Below, in pieces: positions 2,886 through 14,885 of a DNA stretch of 33,489 bases. The stretch is from an uncultured Synechococcus sp. (GTDB lineage Bacteria; Cyanobacteriota; Cyanobacteriia; PCC-6307; Cyanobiaceae), in the NCBI GenBank assembly GCA_913061215.1, contig CAJXSQ010000007.1, positions 1 to 33,489 of the forward strand, in the 5' to 3' direction. Position 1 is the first letter of the stretch; every line of letters starts with the position of its first letter. The notes beneath the pieces are model-generated. The model saw only the letters and a list, made by a program, of their open reading frames with translations, made no database searches and had not been told where the DNA came from. A program made the position numbers and the translations under genes.

Positions 2886-4148
2886 GTGCGCATGGGCGCT
2901 GCCACATCGATCGGAATCGTGGGCGGCGGTCAGCTGGCCTGGATGCTGGCCGAGGCTGCCCGCCGGCGCGGTGTGGAACTGCATGTGCAGACCCCAGGCC
3001 CCGGGGATCCGGCCGTGGCGCTGGCCAGCAGCGTGGTGCAGGCGGATGTGCGCGATGTGGCCGCCACGCGGGAGCTGGCTGGCCGTTGCAGCGCCATCAG
3101 CTTTGAGAACGAATGGGTGGATCTCGATGGCCTCGCGGCCCTGGCCGCCGATGGCGTCTGCTTTCTGCCGTCGCTGGATGCCCTGCGGCCACTGGTGTGC
3201 AAGCGCAGCCAGCGGGAACTGCTGCAGCGCCTGAACCTGCCTTCACCGGCCTGGTTCGTGCTCGAGCAGGTGTTGCCCGTGGCGGCCGATCCCGACCCTG
3301 GCGCCGAGGCCACACCTCAGCAACCTCCCACGCCCTCGGGGCCTGCCTTGCCCGCGGGGTTTGCCTACCCCGTGATGGCCAAGGCCGCCAGCGGCGGTTA
3401 CGACGGCAAGGGCACCGCGGTGTTGCGCAGCGACGCTGATCTTGAGGCGCTGCTCCAGCGCGTGGATCCGGCCGGCTGGATCGTGGAGGAGTTCGTGGCG
3501 TTTGAGCAGGAGCTGGCGGTGGTGGCCGCCCGCGATCAGCTCGGCCAGGTGGAGTGTCTGCCGATCGTTCAGACCCACCAGCATCAGCAGGTGTGCGATT
3601 GGGTTCTGGCGCCGGCTGAGGCGGGGCATGCCCTGCAGCAGGCCGTGCGCAACATCGCCGCTTCACTGCTCACCGCGCTCGACTATGTGGGCGTGCTCTC
3701 GATCGAGTTCTTCTACGGGCCCCGCGGCCTGATGATCAACGAGCTGGCCCCACGCACCCACAACTCAGGCCACTACTCGATCGAAGCCTGCGACAGCAGC
3801 CAGTTCGATCTGCAGTTGCTGAGCGTGAGCGGCGCCGCGTTGCCGGAGCCTCGCCTCCAGGCACCCGGCGCCCTGATGGTGAACCTGCTGGGCTTTGAAC
3901 AGCGTTCCGCGGACGATCCAGCCTCCGCCTATGAGGGCCCGCGCCAGCAGCTCTCTGCCCTGCCCGATGCTCACCTGCACTGGTATGGCAAGGCGGGATC
4001 CAGCCTCGGCCGCAAGCTCGGCCACATCACGCTGCTGCTGCGTGAACACGATCCGGCGGCCCGGCGTGAGGAGGCGATGCAGCGGCTGGATCAGGTGCGT
4101 GCGATCTGGCCCCTTCCGCCTGGACCAGCGAGCCCCGATCTGTCTTAA
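2886..4148 (+). CDS. purK: 5-(carboxyamino)imidazole ribonucleotide synthase
   Basis: GTG start; [23 protein letters not shown]-terminus, ATP-grasp signatures ([47 protein letters not shown]) characteristic of PurK. Confidence 0.96.
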
Positions 4149-4365
4149 GGTTCAGCCGGACTGCTGTGTTGGTGACTGCCTTCTACAGTTTTCTGATCTG
4201 ACTCCCTTTTCGACTTGGGGCGTCTGTCGCGACAGTGCCGTAAACCGGCCTCGTAGCCGGAAACGAATCTTCGCTTTGACTCCCCTTCTGGTTTATCCAG
4301 GTCGGAATCTGGGGCAGAACGGCACAGCGGTTCACCCTCTTGCAGCGCCATGAACCGATCAAGCG

Positions 4366-4611
4366 ATGTCTGATGACCAGCTGAAGGTTTTTCTGGAAGC
4401 AGTCCGGGCGGACGCGGGGCTTCGGGAGCAGCTCCAAGGCGCTGCCGACGCTGATGCTGTTGTGGCGATTGCCAAGGCGGCGGGTTTTGTGATTTCCGCT
4501 GAGGAGCTGAAAAAGGTTCAATCAGAGGTCTCGGAAGAAGAGCTTCAGACCATGGCTGGTGGTGGCATTTGGTCGATGGATTGCACGGGTGGGCACTGGG
4601 GGCCTTGCTAA
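4366..4611 (+). CDS. Nif11-type leader peptide, prochlorosin-like (ProcA-like) lanthipeptide precursor
   Basis: 81 aa: MSDDQLKVFLEAVRADAGLREQLQGAADADAVVAIAKAAGFVISAEELKKVQSEVSEEELQTMAGG | GIWSMDCTGGHWGPC. Nif11 leader pattern (DQLKxFLEAVxADxxLxEQL...ADADAVVxIAKxAGFxIxxEEL), a terminal GG motif, and a 15-aa core with one Ser, one Thr and two Cys. Confidence 0.92.
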   Translation: MSDDQLKVFLEAVRADAGLREQLQGAADADAVVAIAKAAGFVISAEELKKVQSEVSEEELQTMAGGGIWSMDCTGGHWGPC

Positions 4612-4653
4612 GTGCCGCGGATGTGCGTGCTCCTGGGGCGTTGAACGTTGGCT

Positions 4654-4932
4654 TCAGCCCTTGATCGCTGCCTGGATGCGTTGCTCGAGAGCGGCCGCAT
4701 CCAGGGCGGTCACGATGAACACCTCCTGAGCGCTGCTGCCCCGGCGGGCCACCAGCTTCCAGCCGCCCGTGATCGGTGTGGAGACCCTCAGGCGCAATTC
4801 CGGGGCGCGTCCTCTCACGCGTGCAATCACCGCTGGGGTGATGGTGTCGATCTCAGGCTCCCTGGCCAGGCGCTTCAGCAGCGGGATCAGTCCCTCCAGG
4901 TAGGTGCTGTGGGTGATCACCAGCCGTCCCAT
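4654..4932 (-). CDS. DUF2103-like conserved cyanobacterial protein
   Basis: [78 protein letters not shown] at 4932 immediately after the clpS stop on the same strand. Family name assigned from recall. Confidence 0.75.
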
Positions 4933-4934
4933 GC

Positions 4935-5216
4935 TCAACAGCGCTCCAGCGGAGCCATGGTGAGCCCTTCGGCGCTGAGCTGTTGGTGGTAGAGCTCCGC
5001 CTGCTCCAGCGGGCCGCTCCACACCTCAGCCGATCCCTGTCCATCGATCCGGTGAGCCAGCTCCCAGGCCCGGTCCGGCGTCATGCCCGGGATGTGGCGC
5101 ACCAGCACCTCCACCACGTGCTGAAAGGTGTTGTGGTCGTCGTCCAGCACGATCACCCGGGCGTTCGGGTAGCGCGCCTGGACGCGCTGGCGATCCACCA
5201 CCGCCTGCTCTGGCAT
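4935..5216 (-). CDS. clpS: ATP-dependent Clp protease adaptor ClpS
   Basis: [66 protein letters not shown] matches the ClpS pattern (DDxxN/TF, VxxVL, A...H..G.A.V). Confidence 0.92.
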
Positions 5217-5244
5217 GGGTCACAAGCCGCATGGGGCCTTCATT

Positions 5245-5258
5245 GTGCCCCCGGGCAC
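5245..5258. promoter_or_regulatory. Inverted repeat GTGCCC-CC-GGGCAC in the clpS/petN divergent intergenic region, upstream of a -10-like TTAAAAT
   Basis: Directly seen: gtgccc cc gggcac at 5245..5258, followed by ggTTAAAATcc at 5261..5270, upstream of the petN ATG at 5292. Confidence 0.35.
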
Positions 5259-5291
5259 TGGTTAAAATCCTTCCGAACTCTTTTCGCCACC

Positions 5292-5393
5292 ATGCTGATC
5301 ACTGCTGGATGGGCCGCTCTGTGCGCCGTGTTCACCTTCTCGATCGCGATGGTGGTGTGGGGCCGTAACGGCGACGGCACCATCAACTTCTGA
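5292..5393 (+). CDS. petN: Cytochrome b6-f complex subunit PetN (33 aa)
   Basis: [33 protein letters not shown]; single TM and the hallmark [14 protein letters not shown] of PetN. Embedded in a longer spurious track ORF (4983..5393). Confidence 0.95.
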
Positions 5394-5395
5394 TC

Positions 5396-5584
5396 GTGAG
5401 CGACGTTGCTGTCGCCGGCCTCACGCTCAACAACGTGCTGGCCATTGCAGCGGCTCTGCTGCTGGTGTTCGTGAGTGGCGGGGTGATCTACCTCTCCACC
5501 ATCGAATGGCGTGATCGCCGGCGCCGGCAGCAGCCCGTTCAGCCGCAGTCCAAGCCCAGAACCAAGGCCAAAGCCCTGCGGTGA
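5396..5584 (+). CDS. Small single-TM conserved hypothetical protein (62 aa)
   Basis: GTG start 2 nt after the petN stop; LNNVLAIAAALLLVFVSGGVIYLSTIEW TM followed by a basic tail RDRRRRQQP...KPRTKAKALR; the GTGA at its end overlaps the cofH start. Confidence 0.75.
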   Translation: MSDVAVAGLTLNNVLAIAAALLLVFVSGGVIYLSTIEWRDRRRRQQPVQPQSKPRTKAKALR

Positions 5585-6819
5585 CGCACCTTCAGGAGTC
5601 GTTCGACCCCTGGGCCTGGGATCGTTCCGCAGCCGTTCTGGCGCCGGTGCCGGCAGAGCCGGTCGGCCCCACGATCCCCTGGGATGCTGCAGCCCAGGCA
5701 GAGCTCGAGCGGGCCCTTGAGCCCGGCGCTGAGCCCGCCCTCAGCCACCCCCTCGCCTTGCGCCTGCTGCGTCAGCTGCCCTCGGAGCCGCTGCGGTTGA
5801 TGGCGGATGGCCGCCGCCGCGAGCTGGTGGGTGAGATGGTCACCTATGTGGTGAACCGGAACCTCAACTTCACCAACCACTGCCTGCAGCACTGCAGCTT
5901 CTGCGCCTTTCGCCGCGATGCCGGGGATCACGGCGCCTACTGGCACAGCTTCGAGGTTCTGCAGCAACGCGCCGCTGAAGCCCAGCGCCTCGGTGCCACC
6001 GAGCTCTGCATTCAGGGTGGGCTGAATCCTGCCGCTCGCCTTGATGGCTCGGCCCTGGCTTACTACCGCCAGCTGCTGCTGGCTCTGCAGGAGGCCGCAC
6101 CGGGGCTTCATCTGCACGCCTTTTCTCCCCAGGAGCTGCTGTTCATCGCCCAGCAGGATCAGCGGCCCCTGCAGGCGGTGATCGATGGCCTGATCGAGGC
6201 GGGGCTGGGATCGGTGCCGGGCACCGCTGCCGAGGTGCTCAGTGAGCCGGTGCGTCAGCGGCTCTGCCCGGAGAAGCTCTCGGCCCGTGAGTGGTGTGCC
6301 GTGGTGCTGCAGGTGCATCGCAGCGGCCTGCCCAGCACGGCCACACTGATGGCCGGCCACATCGAATCCCCGGCAGATCGCGCCGCCCATCTGCTCACGT
6401 TGGTGGCTCTTCAGCAGGAGGCCTGGCAGCATCAACACACCGGGTTCAGCGAGTTTGTGTTGCTCCCCTTCATCGGCGCCCAGGCCCCGGCGGCCCTGCG
6501 CCAGCGCGTGGGCCGCGACCAACCCGATCGCCCTGCGATGCTCGCGCTCACGGCGCAGGCGCGCCTGCTGCTCGGCCGCTGGATCGTGAACCACCAGCCC
6601 AGCTGGGTGAAGCTCACCCTGGATGGTGCCCGTGAAGCGCTCCGCTGGGGCTGCAACGACCTCGGCGGCACCCTGATGGAGGAGAGCATCACCAGCATGG
6701 CCGGGGCCCAGGGCGGCACCTGCCAGAGTCCGGCAGCCCTGCGCGCGGCGGCCACCAGCCTCGGACGACCGGTGCGTCAGCGCAGCACCCTCTATGGCGC
6801 GGTCGCGGTGTGCGCCTGA
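5581..6819 (+). CDS. cofH: FO synthase subunit 2 (radical SAM, CofH family)
   Basis: VVNRNLNFTNHCLQHCSFCAFRR with CX3CX2C radical SAM cluster motif, ELCIQGGLNP, HAFSPQE, GSVPGTAAEVL, ATLMAGHIE, FVLLPFIGAQAP: CofH signatures. Confidence 0.92.
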   Translation: MTHLQESFDPWAWDRSAAVLAPVPAEPVGPTIPWDAAAQAELERALEPGAEPALSHPLALRLLRQLPSEPLRLMADGRRRELVGEMVTYVVNRNLNFTNHCLQHCSFCAFRRDAGDHGAYWHSFEVLQQRAAEAQRLGATELCIQGGLNPAARLDGSALAYYRQLLLALQEAAPGLHLHAFSPQELLFIAQQDQRPLQAVIDGLIEAGLGSVPGTAAEVLSEPVRQRLCPEKLSAREWCAVVLQVHRSGLPSTATLMAGHIESPADRAAHLLTLVALQQEAWQHQHTGFSEFVLLPFIGAQAPAALRQRVGRDQPDRPAMLALTAQARLLLGRWIVNHQPSWVKLTLDGAREALRWGCNDLGGTLMEESITSMAGAQGGTCQSPAALRAAATSLGRPVRQRSTLYGAVAVCA

Positions 6820-8093
6820 ACATCCCGCCGCTGAACATGGAGCCCCTGAAGCGCCTGCCGCTCAGGATCACCGCGCTCACCACGGCCGTGGCCGTGCTGG
6901 TGCCTGCTCTGCTGGTGCTGTTGGTGCCCCGGCGCCTCGCCAGCGGGCTGGATCGCCTTCTGCCCGAGGCGGCTCTGCTGCAGAGTTTCCCGGCCCGACC
7001 CGGCTCAGCGCCGCCACCCCTCTGGCAGCAGCGCCTCGGGCCCCAGCAGGCCGCTGAGCTCTGGCGCAGGCAGCGGCGGCTGTGGTGGCAGTTCTGGGGT
7101 CCCCACGGCGACGCCGGGGCCTATCTGGTGTTCGCGGCTCCGCCCTCCACCCCGTTGCCGGCGGATGCCCTGCGGGTCGACGATCTGCTCGTGGTGGCCC
7201 CCAGTCCGCTGGCGCGGCAGCTGCTGCAGCAGCAACTGCGGCTGCGCCGTCGCCCCTCCCGGGGCCTGAACCAGCGCTGCAGCGAAGCCCTGATGCAACG
7301 GGAGGCGGTGCACTGGACGGGCACCGCCCTGGCCCAGATGCTCGGCCCGCTCTCGCCACTGGCCCTCAGCCTGCAGCAGGGATGTCTGCTGTTGAGCAGC
7401 GAAGGTTCGGCTCTGCTCTGGCAGGGCGAAGCCGAGGCCAGCCGCGATTCCCTGCAGCCAGCCCCAGCCCGGCTGGCGATCCCTGCGGCGTTGCCCCGAT
7501 CAGGTGCCACCCTGCTCGAGCTGCGGGGGCGCCGGCTTGAGCTGTTGCTGCGCGGTCTGCTGAGCACGGCGTTACTGCGCAATGCCCTGGCAGAGCGCTA
7601 TGGGCTGGGCCCGGAGCAGCTGCGGCGCCTGCAGGGTGCGCCGTTCGTGCTGCAGTTGCAGCCGCAGGCTGCCGGCACCTGGCGGGCGGGACTCTCCCTG
7701 TTGGTGCGCCTTCCCGGCGAACGCCAGCTGTGGGAGCGCTGGCTCGCGGATCTGAGCCGAGCGCTGGAGCAGCAGGGCCTGGCTCCCAGCCAGCCCGGCG
7801 GGGGCGTGACCCTCTGGGGCCGTGAGGATGGCACCTCCGTGGGGGGCTGGCGCTGGCTCAAGCCCGATCAGCTGCTCCTCTTCCTTGGCCCCAGCCCCGG
7901 CAGCACCGCCAACCTGGATGGATCAGCCGGCTCGGCCGACTGGCAGCTGAGCCTGAGTCCAGCAGCGCTGCAGGCGGCTCAGTTGCTGCCGCCCGGACTG
8001 CCCCTGGTGGTTCAGCGTTCCCAGGCGCTGTTGCTGCAGGGGCGGGCCGCTGCAGGCAGCACCGCCCTCTCGGGCCGCCTGGAGCTCAGGTAG
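6810..8093 (+). CDS. Conserved hypothetical protein with N-terminal TM anchor
   Basis: Open frame with strand-consistent codon usage; N-terminal ITALTTAVAVLVPALLVLLVP TM segment. Start may be 6810 (GTG/ATG region overlapping cofH) or ATG near 6837 (MEPLKRLPLRIT). Confidence 0.65.
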   Translation: MRLNIPPLNMEPLKRLPLRITALTTAVAVLVPALLVLLVPRRLASGLDRLLPEAALLQSFPARPGSAPPPLWQQRLGPQQAAELWRRQRRLWWQFWGPHGDAGAYLVFAAPPSTPLPADALRVDDLLVVAPSPLARQLLQQQLRLRRRPSRGLNQRCSEALMQREAVHWTGTALAQMLGPLSPLALSLQQGCLLLSSEGSALLWQGEAEASRDSLQPAPARLAIPAALPRSGATLLELRGRRLELLLRGLLSTALLRNALAERYGLGPEQLRRLQGAPFVLQLQPQAAGTWRAGLSLLVRLPGERQLWERWLADLSRALEQQGLAPSQPGGGVTLWGREDGTSVGGWRWLKPDQLLLFLGPSPGSTANLDGSAGSADWQLSLSPAALQAAQLLPPGLPLVVQRSQALLLQGRAAAGSTALSGRLELR

Positions 8094-8766
8094 CGCTGCC
8101 TTCAGCGGCGCGTTCGCGCCGGCGCCGCTCGGCGGCCACGGTCTCTTCCATCAGTTCCACCGCCTGGCTCATCTTCTCGATGTTGCTGGCGTAGAGGCTG
8201 AGGTCCTTGTCAACGCGGTCCTTGATCAGGCCCATGGCTTCGCCGATCTCATGGGCGGCGCTGCGCAGGGCCTGGGGCTCGATCGCTTCAGCGCCCTGGG
8301 CGCTCTGCAGCAGGCTGAGCAGGCCCACGGCCACCAGGCGGGAGTAGTGGAAATCGGGGCGTTGCACCTCGTGCAGCAGGCTGGCGATCAGCTCGGGCGC
8401 GCCTTCCCCCTGCTTGGAGAGCCAGCTTTTCACCTCCTCCAGGCTGTGGTGCCCCACCTGCTGGCGGGCCTGCTCGGCCTTGGCGCGCAGCGCCGTGCCA
8501 TCGAAGCCATTGGCGCTGCAGAGGGCCTGGAACAGGGGCTCGCGCTGCTCATCAGGCCGGTAGCCCTTGGAGAAGCTGTCGAACACCTGGGTGAGGCCCA
8601 CGGCGAACAGGCCGTCGGCCTGGAACCCCTTCTGATGGCTGAGCAGGTGCAGCTCCACCAGCAGCTCATCCACCAGCCGCCGGTAGATCGGCGCGATCAC
8701 GTGGGGGAAGGCGCTGTGAAAGGCACGCTTGCTATCGGCAACGGTGAGGCTCACGCCCACGCTCAC
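8086..8766 (-). CDS. thf1: Thylakoid formation protein Thf1/Psb29
   Basis: TVADSKRAFHSAFPHVIAPIYRRLVDELLVELHLLSHQKGFQADGLFAVGLTQVFDSFSKGYRP is characteristic of Psb29/Thf1. Confidence 0.94.
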   Translation of the reverse strand: MSVGVSLTVADSKRAFHSAFPHVIAPIYRRLVDELLVELHLLSHQKGFQADGLFAVGLTQVFDSFSKGYRPDEQREPLFQALCSANGFDGTALRAKAEQARQQVGHHSLEEVKSWLSKQGEGAPELIASLLHEVQRPDFHYSRLVAVGLLSLLQSAQGAEAIEPQALRSAAHEIGEAMGLIKDRVDKDLSLYASNIEKMSQAVELMEETVAAERRRRERAAEGSAT

Positions 8767-8854
8767 ATCGGTAAAGGTGGTTGGACCCTAGCTCGCGAGC
8801 AACGCTGATCCCGGCTGGAGCTCAGTAGGATCGCCCCAGCTGCTGAGCCCCACT

Positions 8855-9451
8855 GTGTCGATGATCCCGATCGTGATCGAAGAGTCGGGCCGGGGCGAAC
8901 GGGCGTTCGATATCTATTCCCGTCTGCTGCGCGAGCGCATCATTTTTCTGGGTGAGCCCGTCACCGCCGAATCCGCCAACCGGATCGTGGCCCAGCTGCT
9001 CTTCCTGGAGGCTGAGGATCCCGAGAAGGACATCTACCTCTATATCAATTCCCCTGGCGGCTCGGTGTACGACGGCCTCGGCATCTTCGACACGATGCAG
9101 CACATCAAGCCGGACGTGCACACCGTGTGCGTGGGCCTGGCCGCTTCGATGGGTGCCTTTCTGCTCTGCGCCGGCGCCAAGGGCAAGCGCAGCAGCCTCA
9201 CCCATTCGCGGATCATGATCCACCAGCCCCTGGGCGGGGCCCGCGGTCAGGCCAGCGATATCCGCATCCAGGCCGATGAGATCCTCTTCCTCAAGAAGAA
9301 GCTCAACCAGGAGCTCGCTGATCGCACCGGTCAGCCCCTGAGCCGCATCGAGGAAGACACCGACCGCGACTTCTTCATGTCTCCCGCTGAGGCCGCCGAG
9401 TACGGCCTGATCGACAAGGTGATCGACAAGCGCCCCGTGCGCGCTGTTTGA
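8855..9451 (+). CDS. clpP: ATP-dependent Clp protease proteolytic subunit ClpP
   Basis: [67 protein letters not shown]: catalytic Ser (ASMGAF) and His (MIHQP) motifs of ClpP. Confidence 0.97.
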
Positions 9452-9473
9452 TCCGATTGCTTGATGCAGGCCC

Positions 9474-9650
9474 GTGGGCCGCAAGCGGGGTGGTTCCGCG
9501 GACAAACCGGGTGGAAAAGGGTTGCCGCCCAGCCAGCGGCCCAGCAAGGTCTGTCCGGTGTGTGGCAGGCCTTTCAGCTGGCGCAAGAAGTGGGCCTCGG
9601 TGTGGGATCAGGTGATCTACTGCTCCGATCGCTGCCGCAACCAGCGTTGA
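9474..9650 (+). CDS. DUF2256 small zinc-ribbon-like protein (58 aa)
   Basis: Own translation from GTG at 9474: [58 protein letters not shown]; CPxC...CxxxC pattern and FSWRKKW typical of DUF2256. Below the size cutoff of the ORF track. Confidence 0.85.
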
Positions 9651-9671
9651 AGCACCGGCCTGATCCGGCAC

Positions 9672-9701
9672 AAAAAAGCCCGCGTCATCGACGCGGGCTT
9701 T
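9672..9701 (-). terminator. Rho-independent-type terminator at the ftsH 3' end (possibly shared with the DUF2256 gene)
   Basis: AAAGCCCGCGTC-ATC-GACGCGGGCTTT perfect 12-bp stem (9675..9686/9690..9701). On the minus strand the hairpin is followed by a run of six T (9672..9677 are A on +). Confidence 0.8.
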
Positions 9702-9729
9702 GTCGTGGAGCACTGAATCGCGGGGTGCC

Positions 9730-11688
9730 TCAGGCTTCTGCCGGCTGAGGGCTCGCTTCAGTCGCCGGTTCAGCCTCGGAAAGGAAGGGGGAGAAACGCT
9801 CCTTTTCGGGAACAGTGGTGAATTCGCTCACGATGGCGCGGAACTCATCACCATCCAGGCTTTCCTTCTCGATCAGCACCTCCACCACGCGATCCATACA
9901 GGCGCGGTTCTCAGCCACGAGCTTCACGGTTTCCTCGTAGCAGTTCTGCACGATCTGGCGCACCGCCAGATCAACGCGCGCTGCTGTGGCATCCGACCCA
10001 TCGCTGCGGGTCATCAGATCGCGGCCCAGGAACACCTCCTGGTTGCCGGCTTCCAGCGAGAGCTGGCCCACCTCGCTCATGCCGAAACGGGTCACCATCT
10101 GGCGGGCGATCGAAGCCACCTGCTGAATGTCGCCGCCGGCACCGGTGGTCACCTCAGCGTGGCCGAACACCACATCCTCCGCGGCACGGCCGCCCAGGGC
10201 GCCCATGATGCGGGCGCGCAGCTGGGCGCGGCTCACCAGCATCTGCTCCTCATCCGGCGAGAACCAGGTGAGGCCCTGGGCCTGGCCACGGGGGATCAGG
10301 GTCACCTTCTGCACCGGGTCGTGGGCTTTCACGAGGGTGCCCACCAGGGCATGGCCCACTTCGTGATACGCGATCAGGCGCTTGCTGCGGCCATCGGTGA
10401 GGGGCTTGCCTTCCATGCCGGCGATGATCCGGTCCACGGCGTCGTCGATCTCGGCCAGACCGGTGGCCTCCTTGCGGCGGCGGGCGGTGAGGATCGCCGC
10501 TTCATTCAGCAGGTTGGCCAGATCGGCGCCGGAGAAGCCGGGGGTGCGGCGGGCGATCGCTTCGAGGCTCACGTCGTCGGCGAGCTTCTTGTCGCGGGAG
10601 TGCACCTTGAGCACCGAGAGACGGCCCTTGATGTCGGGCACATCCACCTGCACCTGGCGATCGAAACGACCCGGACGCAGCAGGGCCGAATCGAGCACGT
10701 CGGCACGGTTGGTGGCCGCAATGATGATGATGCCGCTGTTGCCCTCGAAGCCGTCCATTTCGGTGAGCAGCTGGTTGAGCGTTTGCTCACGCTCATCGTT
10801 GCCGCCGCCCACACCGGCGCCGCGCTGACGGCCCACCGCATCGATCTCGTCGATGAAGATCAGGCAGGGGCTGTTTTCCTTGGCGCGCTTGAACAGATCG
10901 CGCACGCGGCTGGCGCCGACGCCCACGAACATCTCCACGAATTCCGAACCGGAGAGGGAGAAGAAGGGCACGCCGGCTTCACCGGCGATCGCCTTGGCCA
11001 GCAGCGTTTTGCCGGTGCCGGGAGGGCCCACCAGCAACACGCCCTTGGGGATCTTGGCGCCCACGGAGGTGAAGCGCTCAGGGGTCTTGAGGAAGGTCAC
11101 CACTTCCTGGAGGTCCTGCTTGGCTTCCTCCACGCCGGCCACGTCGTCGAACTTCACGCCGGTTTCGGCTTCCATCAGGAAGCGGGCCTTGGTTTTGCCG
11201 AACTGCATGGCCTGGCCGGGGCCGCCGGGCATGCCGTTACCGCGGCGCGCCAGGAACACCAGCACCCCGATCAGCAGCAGCGGGAAGAGCAGGTTGCCCA
11301 GCAGGCCCAGGGCGGGCGGTGCCTGCCGGGGCGGGTGGATGTCGAAGCTGATGCCCTGCTCCTTGAGGTTGTTCACCAGCTCGGGCGCGAGACCGGGCAG
11401 ATCCACGCGCAGGCGCTGCACGCGGTTGTCGAGGTCGGGATCCACCGCTTCCACCACGGCCGTGCGGCCGCCATCGAAGATGTCCACGGCGGTGACGCGT
11501 CCGGCATCCACGTAGTCGAGGAAGCGGCCGTAGCTCATGCGGGCCACCGCGGCATTGCGGGGAGCCACGGTGGGGCCGGCGGGCGCTCCCAGACGGGCTG
11601 AGCCGTTGCCGAGCACCTGCCAGCCCAGGAACAGAGCAACCCCGATGGGCAGAACCCAGAGAGCGATCGTGCGCCAGCGCTGGTTCAT
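9730..11688 (-). CDS. ftsH: ATP-dependent zinc metalloprotease FtsH
   Basis: [49 protein letters not shown] region ([23 protein letters not shown]), HEVGHAL (HExxH). Confidence 0.98.
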
Positions 11689-11771
11689 GGCAGCCTCAGC
11701 AGGTTGTGATGTTTAACAAGTGTAAAGCGAGCGCTGCCGCCAGCGGGGATCTCGGCAGCGCTGCCTTCTCA

Positions 11772-12062
11772 TCAGGAGGCTCGTTGCCACTCAGGCAGGG
11801 CGCCGGCGATGCCGCTGATCGGTGCCTGGCTCAGGGCTTCGGGTTCGTCCACGCAGAGCTCCTCCACCTGGATGCTCTCGCGCAGTTCCGGGCCGCCAAG
11901 GCCATGGGTCCAGATCTGAACCTGCGATTCCGGCGGCGCCAGAAAGCTCAGCAGTTCGAACGGAAACACCACCCGCTCCAGAAAGAACTCATCGGGGCCC
12001 ACGCAGCGCACGATCACCATCCGATCGCTGCTGTTGCGATAGCCACAGGTGAGCTGCGCCAA
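11772..12062 (-). CDS. DUF1830 domain protein
   Basis: LTCGYRNSSDRMVIVRCVGPDEFFLERVVFPFELLSFLAPPESQVQIWTHGLGGPEL matches the DUF1830 pattern (CxYxNxTxxxQxxRCxGPxxFFxERVVFPxE). Confidence 0.85.
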   Translation of the reverse strand: MAQLTCGYRNSSDRMVIVRCVGPDEFFLERVVFPFELLSFLAPPESQVQIWTHGLGGPELRESIQVEELCVDEPEALSQAPISGIAGALPEWQRAS

Positions 12063-12193
12063 GGGAAAAGCTGCCGAAAGGTCTCCTCATGAAGCCATCT
12101 CGTTGCAGGCGGGATGGTCGCAGTTGAAACCGTTTGTGAGCACGTTGCCCATCTTTGGGATTTCTTCGCTTTTGCGCGGCTTCCCGCCGCTGC

Positions 12194-13423
12194 TCAAAGG
12201 CTGCGCAGCGCGGTGATCGGATCCAGCCGTGCCGCCCTGCGGGCGGGAAGCACCCCGAACACCAAGCCGATCGAGCCGGAGAGGCCAACGGTGATCAGCA
12301 CACTCACCCCGCCGATGGCAGCCGGCAATGGCGTGACGGCGGCCACGGCCGCCACGGCCGAGAGCCCCACGGCACTGCCGATCACCCCGCCCAGGCTGGA
12401 GAGCACCAGGGCCTCCACCAGGAACTGGGCCAGCACATCGCTGCTGCGGGCACCGATCGCCTTGCGCAGGCCGATCTCGGAGGTGCGCTCGCTCACCGAC
12501 ACCAGCATGATGTTCATGATCCCGATGCCGCCCACCAACAGGGAGATGGCGCCGATCGCACCGAGCATCAGCGTGAGACCGCCGGTGATCGTGCCCACGA
12601 TCGAGAGCGCATCCTGCTGGGAGCGCACGGCGAAATCGTCCTCCCGCAGGATGTTGTGGCGCTGGCGCAGCAGGTTGGTGATCTGAAACTTGGCGGCGCC
12701 GGTGCTCGCTTCATCGTTGGCTTCCACGCTGATGAAGTTGAGGCTGACGCCATAGGTGGGATCGCGCCCCGACAGCTTGCTCACCATGGTGGTGAGCGGG
12801 ATGTAAGCCGCCTCATCCTGGTTCTGGCCGAACACGGCCCCCTTGGGCGCCATCACCCCGATCACTTCGAAGCTCTGATCGCGGATGCGCAGCTGCTGGC
12901 CCACGGCCGGGCCCACCGGCAGCAGCTTGTCGCGCAGATCAGGGCCGATCACCACAACGTTGCGGGCGGCGTCCATGTCGCGCTGATCGATGAAGCGGCC
13001 GCGGGCCACCTCGAAGCGGCGCACGGCCAGAAACTCCGGCGTGATGCCAGACACCGTGGTGCTGGTGCTCTTGGCACCGGCTTGCAGGACAGCGCTGAGG
13101 GTGATCTGCGGCGCCACCCGCTTCACGCTCGGCACCTGCTCGGCAATCGCTTCAGCATCCTCAAGCACCAGGGTCTTGGGAAAATCAATGCCCCGGCGAC
13201 GGCTGTCGTTGTTGCCCGGCACCACGAACAGCACGTTGGCTCCGAGGGTGTTGAGCTGTCCCTCTGCCAGGTTCTGGGCACCGCGGCCCACACCCACCAG
13301 GGTGATCACAGAGGCGTTGCCGATCACAATGCCGAGCATCGTGAGCAGGGAACGGAGACGGTTGGCCCGCAGGGTGGCCAGGGCCATCCCCACGGTTTCA
13401 CCCATGGCGAGCTTGGCGGCCAT
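12194..13423 (-). CDS. MacB/FtsX-type ABC transporter permease
   Basis: ALATLRANRLRSLLTMLGIVIGNASVITLVGVGRGAQ N-terminus, periplasmic MacB-PCD-like region, C-terminal GAIGAISLLVGGIGIMNIMLVSVSERTSEIGLRKAIGARSSDVLAQFLVEALVLSSLGG. Confidence 0.92.
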   Translation of the reverse strand: MAAKLAMGETVGMALATLRANRLRSLLTMLGIVIGNASVITLVGVGRGAQNLAEGQLNTLGANVLFVVPGNNDSRRRGIDFPKTLVLEDAEAIAEQVPSVKRVAPQITLSAVLQAGAKSTSTTVSGITPEFLAVRRFEVARGRFIDQRDMDAARNVVVIGPDLRDKLLPVGPAVGQQLRIRDQSFEVIGVMAPKGAVFGQNQDEAAYIPLTTMVSKLSGRDPTYGVSLNFISVEANDEASTGAAKFQITNLLRQRHNILREDDFAVRSQQDALSIVGTITGGLTLMLGAIGAISLLVGGIGIMNIMLVSVSERTSEIGLRKAIGARSSDVLAQFLVEALVLSSLGGVIGSAVGLSAVAAVAAVTPLPAAIGGVSVLITVGLSGSIGLVFGVLPARRAARLDPITALRSL

Positions 13424-13427
13424 CGGC

Positions 13428-14885
13428 CTACATGATCGTGGGATCGAGCACGGTGCCCTTGCCCACGATGCTCACCTTCACCAGATCGGTGGAGCCGCTC
13501 ACATCGGCCACCGTGCCGGCGGTCTGAATCACGAGGTCGCCTTCGCGCAGCAGGGCGTTTTCGGCGGCCATCTCCATGGCCTTGTTGAAGCTGGCGGTGG
13601 CGTTCTCAGCGTCGTCCACCAGCAGCGGATGCACACCCCACACCAGCTGCAGCTGGCAGGCCACCTTCTCCTCGCTGGTGATCGCCAGGATCGGTGTGCT
13701 GGGCCGGAACTTGCTCACATTGCGGGCCGTGGCGCCGCTCTTGGTGAGGGGCAGGATCGCCGCCGCCTCCAGCTGGCGGGCGATGGCGCTCACCGCGTGG
13801 CTGATGGCGTTGGGGATCGTGGAGGCCAGCTGGCCATCGCTGGCGCGGCGCGGGTAGTCGCGCTCGATCCGGCGGGCGATCTGGCTCATCGTGGCCACAG
13901 CCTCCACGGGGTAGTCGCCCACGGCGCTCTCGTTGGAGAGCATCACCGCATCGGTGCCATCGAGGATGGCGTTGGCCACATCGCTCACTTCAGCGCGGGT
14001 GGGCCGGGGGCAGCTCACCATCGAATCGAGCATCTGGGTGGCGGTGATCACCGGGATACCCAGGCCGTTGCACTTGCGGATCAGTTCCTTCTGCAGCAGC
14101 GGCACTTCTTCAGCCGGCATCTCCACGCCCAGGTCGCCGCGGGCCACCATCACGCCGTCGCAGAGCGGCAGGATCGCATCGATCTGATCGATCGCTTCGA
14201 ATTTCTCGATCTTGGCCACCACAGGTGTGTTGTGGCCGTGGGAGGCGATCAGCGCCTTGATTTCCTCCATATCGGAGGGGTTGCGCACAAAGCTGAGGGC
14301 CACCCAGTCCACCCCCTGCTGCAGACCAAAGGCCAGATCGGTGCGGTCCTTATCGGTGAGGGCGCGGATCGAAAGCTGCACATCGGGGAAATTCACCCCC
14401 TTGTTGTTCGACAGCACCCCGCCCACCGTCACGGTGCAGTAGAGGGTCTGATCACTCTTGTCCACGCGGTCGGCCACCATTTCCACGCGGCCGTCGTCCA
14501 GCAGGATCCGGCTGCCGGGCACCACCTCCTCGGCGAGCTTGTCGTAGGTGACGGTGGCGATCTCCTGGGTGCAGGCCACATCCCGGGAGGTGAGGGTGAA
14601 GGCATCACCCTTGGCCACGGTGATCGGGCCGTCCTTGAAGCGACCGAGGCGGATCTTCGGGCCCTGCAGGTCCTGCAGGATGCCGATATGAACATCGAGC
14701 TCCTCAGCCACGCTGCGGATCGTGCGGATCCGGGCGGCGTGTTCGCTGTGGTCGCCGTGGGAGAAATTGAGCCGGAACGTGGTGGCGCCCGCTTCGATCA
14801 GGCGCCGCAGCTGTTCCGGAGATTCGGTGGCAGGGCCGATGGTGGCCACGATCTTGGTGCGACGCGTGAGATCGGGCAGGGCCAT
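13428..14885 (-). CDS. pyk: Pyruvate kinase
   Basis: RRTKIVATIGPATESPEQLRRLIEAGATTFRLNFSHGDHSEH, VMVARGDLGVEMPAEEVPLLQKELIRKCN, PVITATQMLDSM. Confidence 0.97.
   Translation of the reverse strand: MALPDLTRRTKIVATIGPATESPEQLRRLIEAGATTFRLNFSHGDHSEHAARIRTIRSVAEELDVHIGILQDLQGPKIRLGRFKDGPITVAKGDAFTLTSRDVACTQEIATVTYDKLAEEVVPGSRILLDDGRVEMVADRVDKSDQTLYCTVTVGGVLSNNKGVNFPDVQLSIRALTDKDRTDLAFGLQQGVDWVALSFVRNPSDMEEIKALIASHGHNTPVVAKIEKFEAIDQIDAILPLCDGVMVARGDLGVEMPAEEVPLLQKELIRKCNGLGIPVITATQMLDSMVSCPRPTRAEVSDVANAILDGTDAVMLSNESAVGDYPVEAVATMSQIARRIERDYPRRASDGQLASTIPNAISHAVSAIARQLEAAAILPLTKSGATARNVSKFRPSTPILAITSEEKVACQLQLVWGVHPLLVDDAENATASFNKAMEMAAENALLREGDLVIQTAGTVADVSGSTDLVKVSIVGKGTVLDPTIM

Follow-up and report, generated by a model that had tools for sequence, protein, structure and literature searches.

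The window analysed here, a stretch of 33,489 nucleotides, is one contig of the picocyanobacterial genome G000, an assembly of 1.9 Mb in 181 contigs that is 84.3% complete. Directly behind the gene of the 6S RNA it contains a small precursor gene of the ProcA type, flanked on both sides by conserved genes:

2886..4148, + strand: purK (phosphoribosylaminoimidazole carboxylase ATPase subunit), conserved left flank; Pfam ATP-grasp and PurK_C, syntenic in the genus
4155..4337, + strand: 6S RNA (SsrS/SsaA/Yfr7) gene; Rfam RF00013, 92.6 bits (gathering threshold 46.4)
4296..4340, + strand: 3' terminus of the 6S RNA gene, a putative attachment site present once in the window; duplicated around islands in the relatives G013, G016 and G023
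4366..4611, + strand: ProcA-type Nif11-leader precursor ORF of 81 aa, from the ATG at 4366 through a stop codon whose last base is 4611
4366..4563, + strand: leader of 66 aa with the C-terminal EEELQTMAGG; TIGR03798 spans residues 1-66
4564..4608, + strand: core GIWSMDCTGGHWGPC by translation; predicted cleavage after GG, as in the family
4654..5022, - strand: DUF2103 protein, conserved right flank, true start uncertain; Pfam DUF2103, 64 bits
4935..5216, - strand: clpS; Pfam ClpS, 53 bits, orthologue syntenic in the genus

The ORF starts 28 bp past the 6S RNA gene, which separates it from purK and is 91-100% identical within the genus; purK followed by 6S is a known gene order of cyanobacteria (PMC1242208). 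Nothing enzyme-like adjoins the ORF.

Precursor, Leader, and Core

The predicted protein matches the NCBIfam profile leader_Nif11 (TIGR03798) with 71 bits and an E-value of 7e-20, above the curated cut-off of 32.3 and over the full length of the profile (positions 1-68 of 68), and the Pfam Nif11 profile with 59 bits. Its leader is up to 65-75% identical to those of precursors in other genomes, these values being reached with the LanM-positive genomes G300 and G247. The two family scores and the leader identity found elsewhere rule out a chance ORF. The protein is thus a Nif11-leader RiPP precursor and, by its ProcA-type leader with a double-Gly end and its ring-competent core, one of the prochlorosin type (ProcA/SyncA). 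Four residues of the core, two Cys and two Ser/Thr, are able to form (methyl)lanthionine: Ser4, Cys7, Thr8, and Cys15. On these residues, as well as on the 81-aa ORF at 4366-4611, the 66-aa leader ending in MAGG and the core codons 4564-4608, the initial annotation agrees with the translation, and its likening of the leader to Nif11 and ProcA leaders is borne out by the profile scores. The non-overlapping rings Ser4-Cys7 and Thr8-Cys15 that it proposed are a possible arrangement, conjectural and unsupported in this host, and other patterns are possible too.

The closest counterpart of the core among 79 cores of relatives (WTMKCT in G052, against WSMDCT in the window) was rejected as a homologue, the likeness being matched or exceeded by 82% of shuffles. 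Searches with the precursor in phages, plasmids, and IMG/VR gave no match, and in a tree of 72 leaders the sequences were too short for a supported placement of the gene. Two other types of Nif11 protein were noticed among the relatives. The precursors of L037 (3603-3953) and L035, both in G014, have two successive double-Gly leader ends, ELAIVAGG followed by DKELEGVAGG; in L037, the inner portion of the precursor also matches the CTB bacteriocin family. In addition, a short Nif11 protein with a conserved NDIPGEYN end and no double-Gly site is widespread (L015-L018, L020-L022, L024, and other loci of the genus) and is similar to group F, left unexplained in PMC10783134.

Modification Machinery in the Host and Its Genus

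In established prochlorosin biosynthesis, the leader is bound by a ProcM-like LanM, which dehydrates Ser and Thr residues; addition of Cys then forms the (methyl)lanthionine rings, and cleavage after GG removes the leader during export. No enzyme for leader binding and dehydration, cyclisation, or leader cleavage was identified in G000. LanM was searched for with the profile TIGR03897 (a DUF4135 search, in which no control matched, was set aside). Of the 400 family genomes, 31 gave a match, 27 of them above the cut-off and those in G257 and G318 very weak; the search found none in the 84%-complete G000, window included, and none in the 25 genomes of the genus, 14 of which are at least 90% complete. 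The match in G257 (C1:1859264-1859392, in L176) covers only 43 residues, in a complete genome with two ProcA-type precursors, and is perhaps the remnant of a lost LanM.

At the same 84% completeness, neither a LANC_like domain nor a C39 peptidase was found in the available sequence of G000. C39 domains are present in 15 of the 16 congeners searched, some of the matches being weak, so their absence from the assembled part of G000 may be due to incompleteness or to loss. A single ProcA-type precursor was found in this 84%-complete assembly, beside different Nif11 proteins.

The absence of LanM, protease, and transporter genes of the pathway from the window had already been noted, and the observation extends to the whole available genome. 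The initial annotation had made its reading depend on a LanM in the host genome, and within the limits of an 84%-complete assembly none was found. Its stand-alone ProcA/SyncA-type precursor with a ring-competent core is supported; an operating lanthipeptide pathway in this host is not, with no LanM seen in G000 or in the 25 genomes of the genus. Because a prochlorosin in the strict sense is a lanthipeptide whose producing genome encodes a ProcM-like LanM, and none was found here, the gene is filed as a ProcA-type Nif11-leader RiPP precursor and not as a prochlorosin lanthipeptide, an assignment to be read with the 84% completeness in mind. Compared with the prochlorosins and synechococsins (ProcA and SyncA, class II lanthipeptides made by ProcM and SyncM), it is alike in the Nif11 leader of ~66 aa with its MS(D/E)(D/E)QL start and (D/E)ELxxxxGG end, in the short variable core with Cys and Ser/Thr, and in the distance of the gene from any LanM. 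It differs in that no LanM or C39 exporter was found, in being one precursor instead of many, and in its place behind the 6S RNA gene and its foreign composition.

The 6S RNA Gene as an Insertion Site

The initial annotation overlooked the 6S RNA gene directly upstream, the anomalous codon composition of the ORF, and the insertion hotspot at which it lies; together, these indicate horizontal acquisition. In the window, with a GC content of 67%, nine other genes have a GC3 of 0.81-0.88, vs. 0.60 in the precursor. Low values were also obtained for precursor leaders in two congeners, G014 and G016 (0.41-0.61, vs. 0.82 and 0.86 for their clpS genes). In G002, G009, G010, G011, and G018 no such gene is found between 6S and DUF2103, and purK and DUF2103 are ~230-280 bp apart vs. 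506 bp in the window, which thus holds an insertion of foreign composition. Scans for a promoter or terminator between 6S and the ORF, in which only sigma-70 patterns were used, gave results no better than shuffles. The same gap is occupied in G004 and G015 (L107 and L111) by a small conserved membrane-type ORF, MDNRLPLTILFSALMLSVLPLAAGLYLHGHMSIAAVLKNAFG or a close variant.

The relatives G013, G016, and G023 carry ~6-10 kb of DNA between the complete 6S RNA gene and a repeat of its 3'-terminal 45-50 bp (94-100% identity), so that the 6S RNA gene is an insertion hotspot in these genomes. The islands, each bounded by the second copy of the 6S 3' end, are:

L039 (G016), 4598-11058: island at 6S
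L125 (G013), 4820-11503: island at 6S
L127 (G023), 4327-14241: island at 6S

Their cargo differs, and two of them (G016 and G023) encode a tyrosine recombinase, a Phage_integrase protein located just inside the far 6S copy. The two integrases are homologous, with 65% identity over 312 residues; that of G016 is in two pieces in different frames. The G016 island also contains an IS481-type transposase and three ProcA-type genes with Cys-free cores, one of them lacking a proper start; the precursor ORF of the window has the opposite orientation to these genes. The two marks of a 6S-site integrative island, a second 6S 3' end and a tyrosine recombinase, are both missing here: the window has no second copy, and the 84%-complete G000 has no integrase related to those of the islands. 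The stretch TGCAGCGC directly after 6S is common to the window, G016, G021, and G023, occurs as a variant in G013, and is lacking in the remaining genomes of the comparison. In G023 it is found behind the far 6S copy as well, and it may be host sequence.

Similar elements are the tycheposons, tyrosine-recombinase islands of picocyanobacteria that have been described at tRNA genes (PMC10872708). The G016 and G023 islands are like them in that they are inserted site-specifically where a small RNA gene ends and have repeats, a recombinase, and variable cargo; they differ in using 6S instead of a tRNA gene and in their size of 6-10 kb, and the window keeps neither repeat nor recombinase. The island integrase has no match in IMG/VR or phages, and the att stretch none in IMG/VR. 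A paper describing the 6S RNA gene as such an attachment site was not found, a weak negative as most subscription journals lay outside the search.

Orphan Precursors across the Family

The lists of LanM matches and precursors (the latter at E <= 1e-8) in the 400 family genomes were compared by hand. A ProcA-type precursor occurs in 42/400 genomes, 27 of which have a LanM match as well; 15 of the 42 are without LanM, nine of these 15 being at least 97% complete, and four genomes have a LanM and no precursor. LanM-positive genomes usually hold many precursors, whereas G000 holds one. Orphaning itself is already known, since LanM was reported in only 9 of 12 precursor-bearing strains (PMC10783134).

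The cores of the two groups differ in composition. Cys-containing cores make up 49/55 in LanM-positive genomes vs. 7/24 in LanM-less ones (Fisher p = 2e-7), and genomes with such cores are 22/22 vs. 5/13 (p = 5e-5); these figures are indicative, as they comprise the best-scoring loci only and genes within a genome and related genomes are not independent. G257 was counted here as LanM-less, the 43-residue stretch being its sole LanM match. The window gene is like the LanM-less precursors (3/12 strains in PMC10783134 and 15/42 genomes here) in having no detectable LanM. Most such cores in the genomes analysed here are Cys-free; that of the window is one of the smaller number of orphan cores that keep a ring-competent make-up. 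In G213, a near-complete genome without LanM, two precursors (L094 and L146) have near-identical Cys-free cores, RAFSWGVGNSGL and RAYGNGVGNSGL.

Origin and Fate of the Gene

The best explanation, to which a probability of about 60% is given, is that a prochlorosin-type (ProcA/SyncA) substrate was acquired horizontally at an insertion hotspot of the 6S RNA gene, lacks its enzyme, and is present as cargo or relict. An orphaned substrate is most likely because neither LanM nor C39 exporter was found in the host. A single precursor gene would have been acquired and inserted in the gap from the 6S RNA gene to DUF2103, entering by the 3' end of the 6S gene through which the genus appears to take up foreign DNA repeatedly; it may have come on an island whose remainder was later lost. 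In the source lineage, a promiscuous ProcM-like LanM would bind the leader and dehydrate Ser4 and Thr8, Cys7 and Cys15 would close the rings, and a C39 exporter would cut the leader after GG. In its present host it would be a substrate without enzyme, giving no lanthionine product and perhaps transcribed by read-through from 6S, which is a possible route. Several findings count against this explanation: the 84% completeness of G000, the missing second 6S copy and integrase, the orientation opposite to the G016 genes, and the C39 exporters common in the genus. Furthermore, there is no visible decay, since the ORF is intact and the core, in contrast to most orphan cores, still has its two Cys and two Ser/Thr. 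The gene may be recent or still under selection.

The same intact ORF and ring-competent core would suit a working stand-alone substrate that yields a two-ring peptide, the genes of its ProcM-like LanM and C39 exporter lying in the 16% of the genome that is missing. The incomplete assembly, the C39 domains of 15 of 16 congeners, and the Cys-containing cores of all 22 LanM-positive genomes sampled, as in the window core, agree with this; it is nevertheless judged unlikely, given the lack of LanM in the 25 genomes of the genus and the single precursor of G000. Alternatively, cleavage and export could yield a linear or disulfide-bonded peptide that lacks lanthionine, or another RiPP enzyme could modify the precursor. 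The two core Cys could form a disulfide, and YcaO clusters with SyncA-type precursors have been described (PMC10783134). In the LanM-less G274 the precursors directly adjoin NHLM-type export genes, which lie ~2.5 kb away in G018, and this makes the use of precursors without LanM plausible in the family. For the window gene, however, such a use has a low probability, with no C39 peptidase in the assembled part of the 84%-complete G000 and no enzyme-like neighbour of the ORF. Misassembly or contamination of a metagenome-style assembly could account for the anomalous GC3 in a genome of 181 contigs, but the ORF sits inside a purK-6S-DUF2103-clpS order kept across the genus and near-complete congeners carry foreign DNA at the same place, so this origin is very improbable.

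Implications

The orphaned-substrate reading carries a caution for annotation: a Nif11 precursor is not automatically a lanthipeptide, as about one third of the precursor-bearing genomes sampled in the family show no LanM and their cores are mostly Cys-free. A wider proposal, tentative and rather doubtful at present, is that in Cyanobium-like picocyanobacteria small tyrosine-recombinase islands use the 6S 3' end as their attachment site and carry prochlorosin precursors unaccompanied by the enzyme. Substrates would then travel independently of LanM, remaining as cargo behind 6S until they reach a host that has it. The islands at the 6S RNA gene offer a concrete, testable vehicle for the horizontal spread of precursors, so far suggested from nearby recombinase genes, and they are a more interesting by-product of the analysis than the precursor gene itself, which belongs to a known type.
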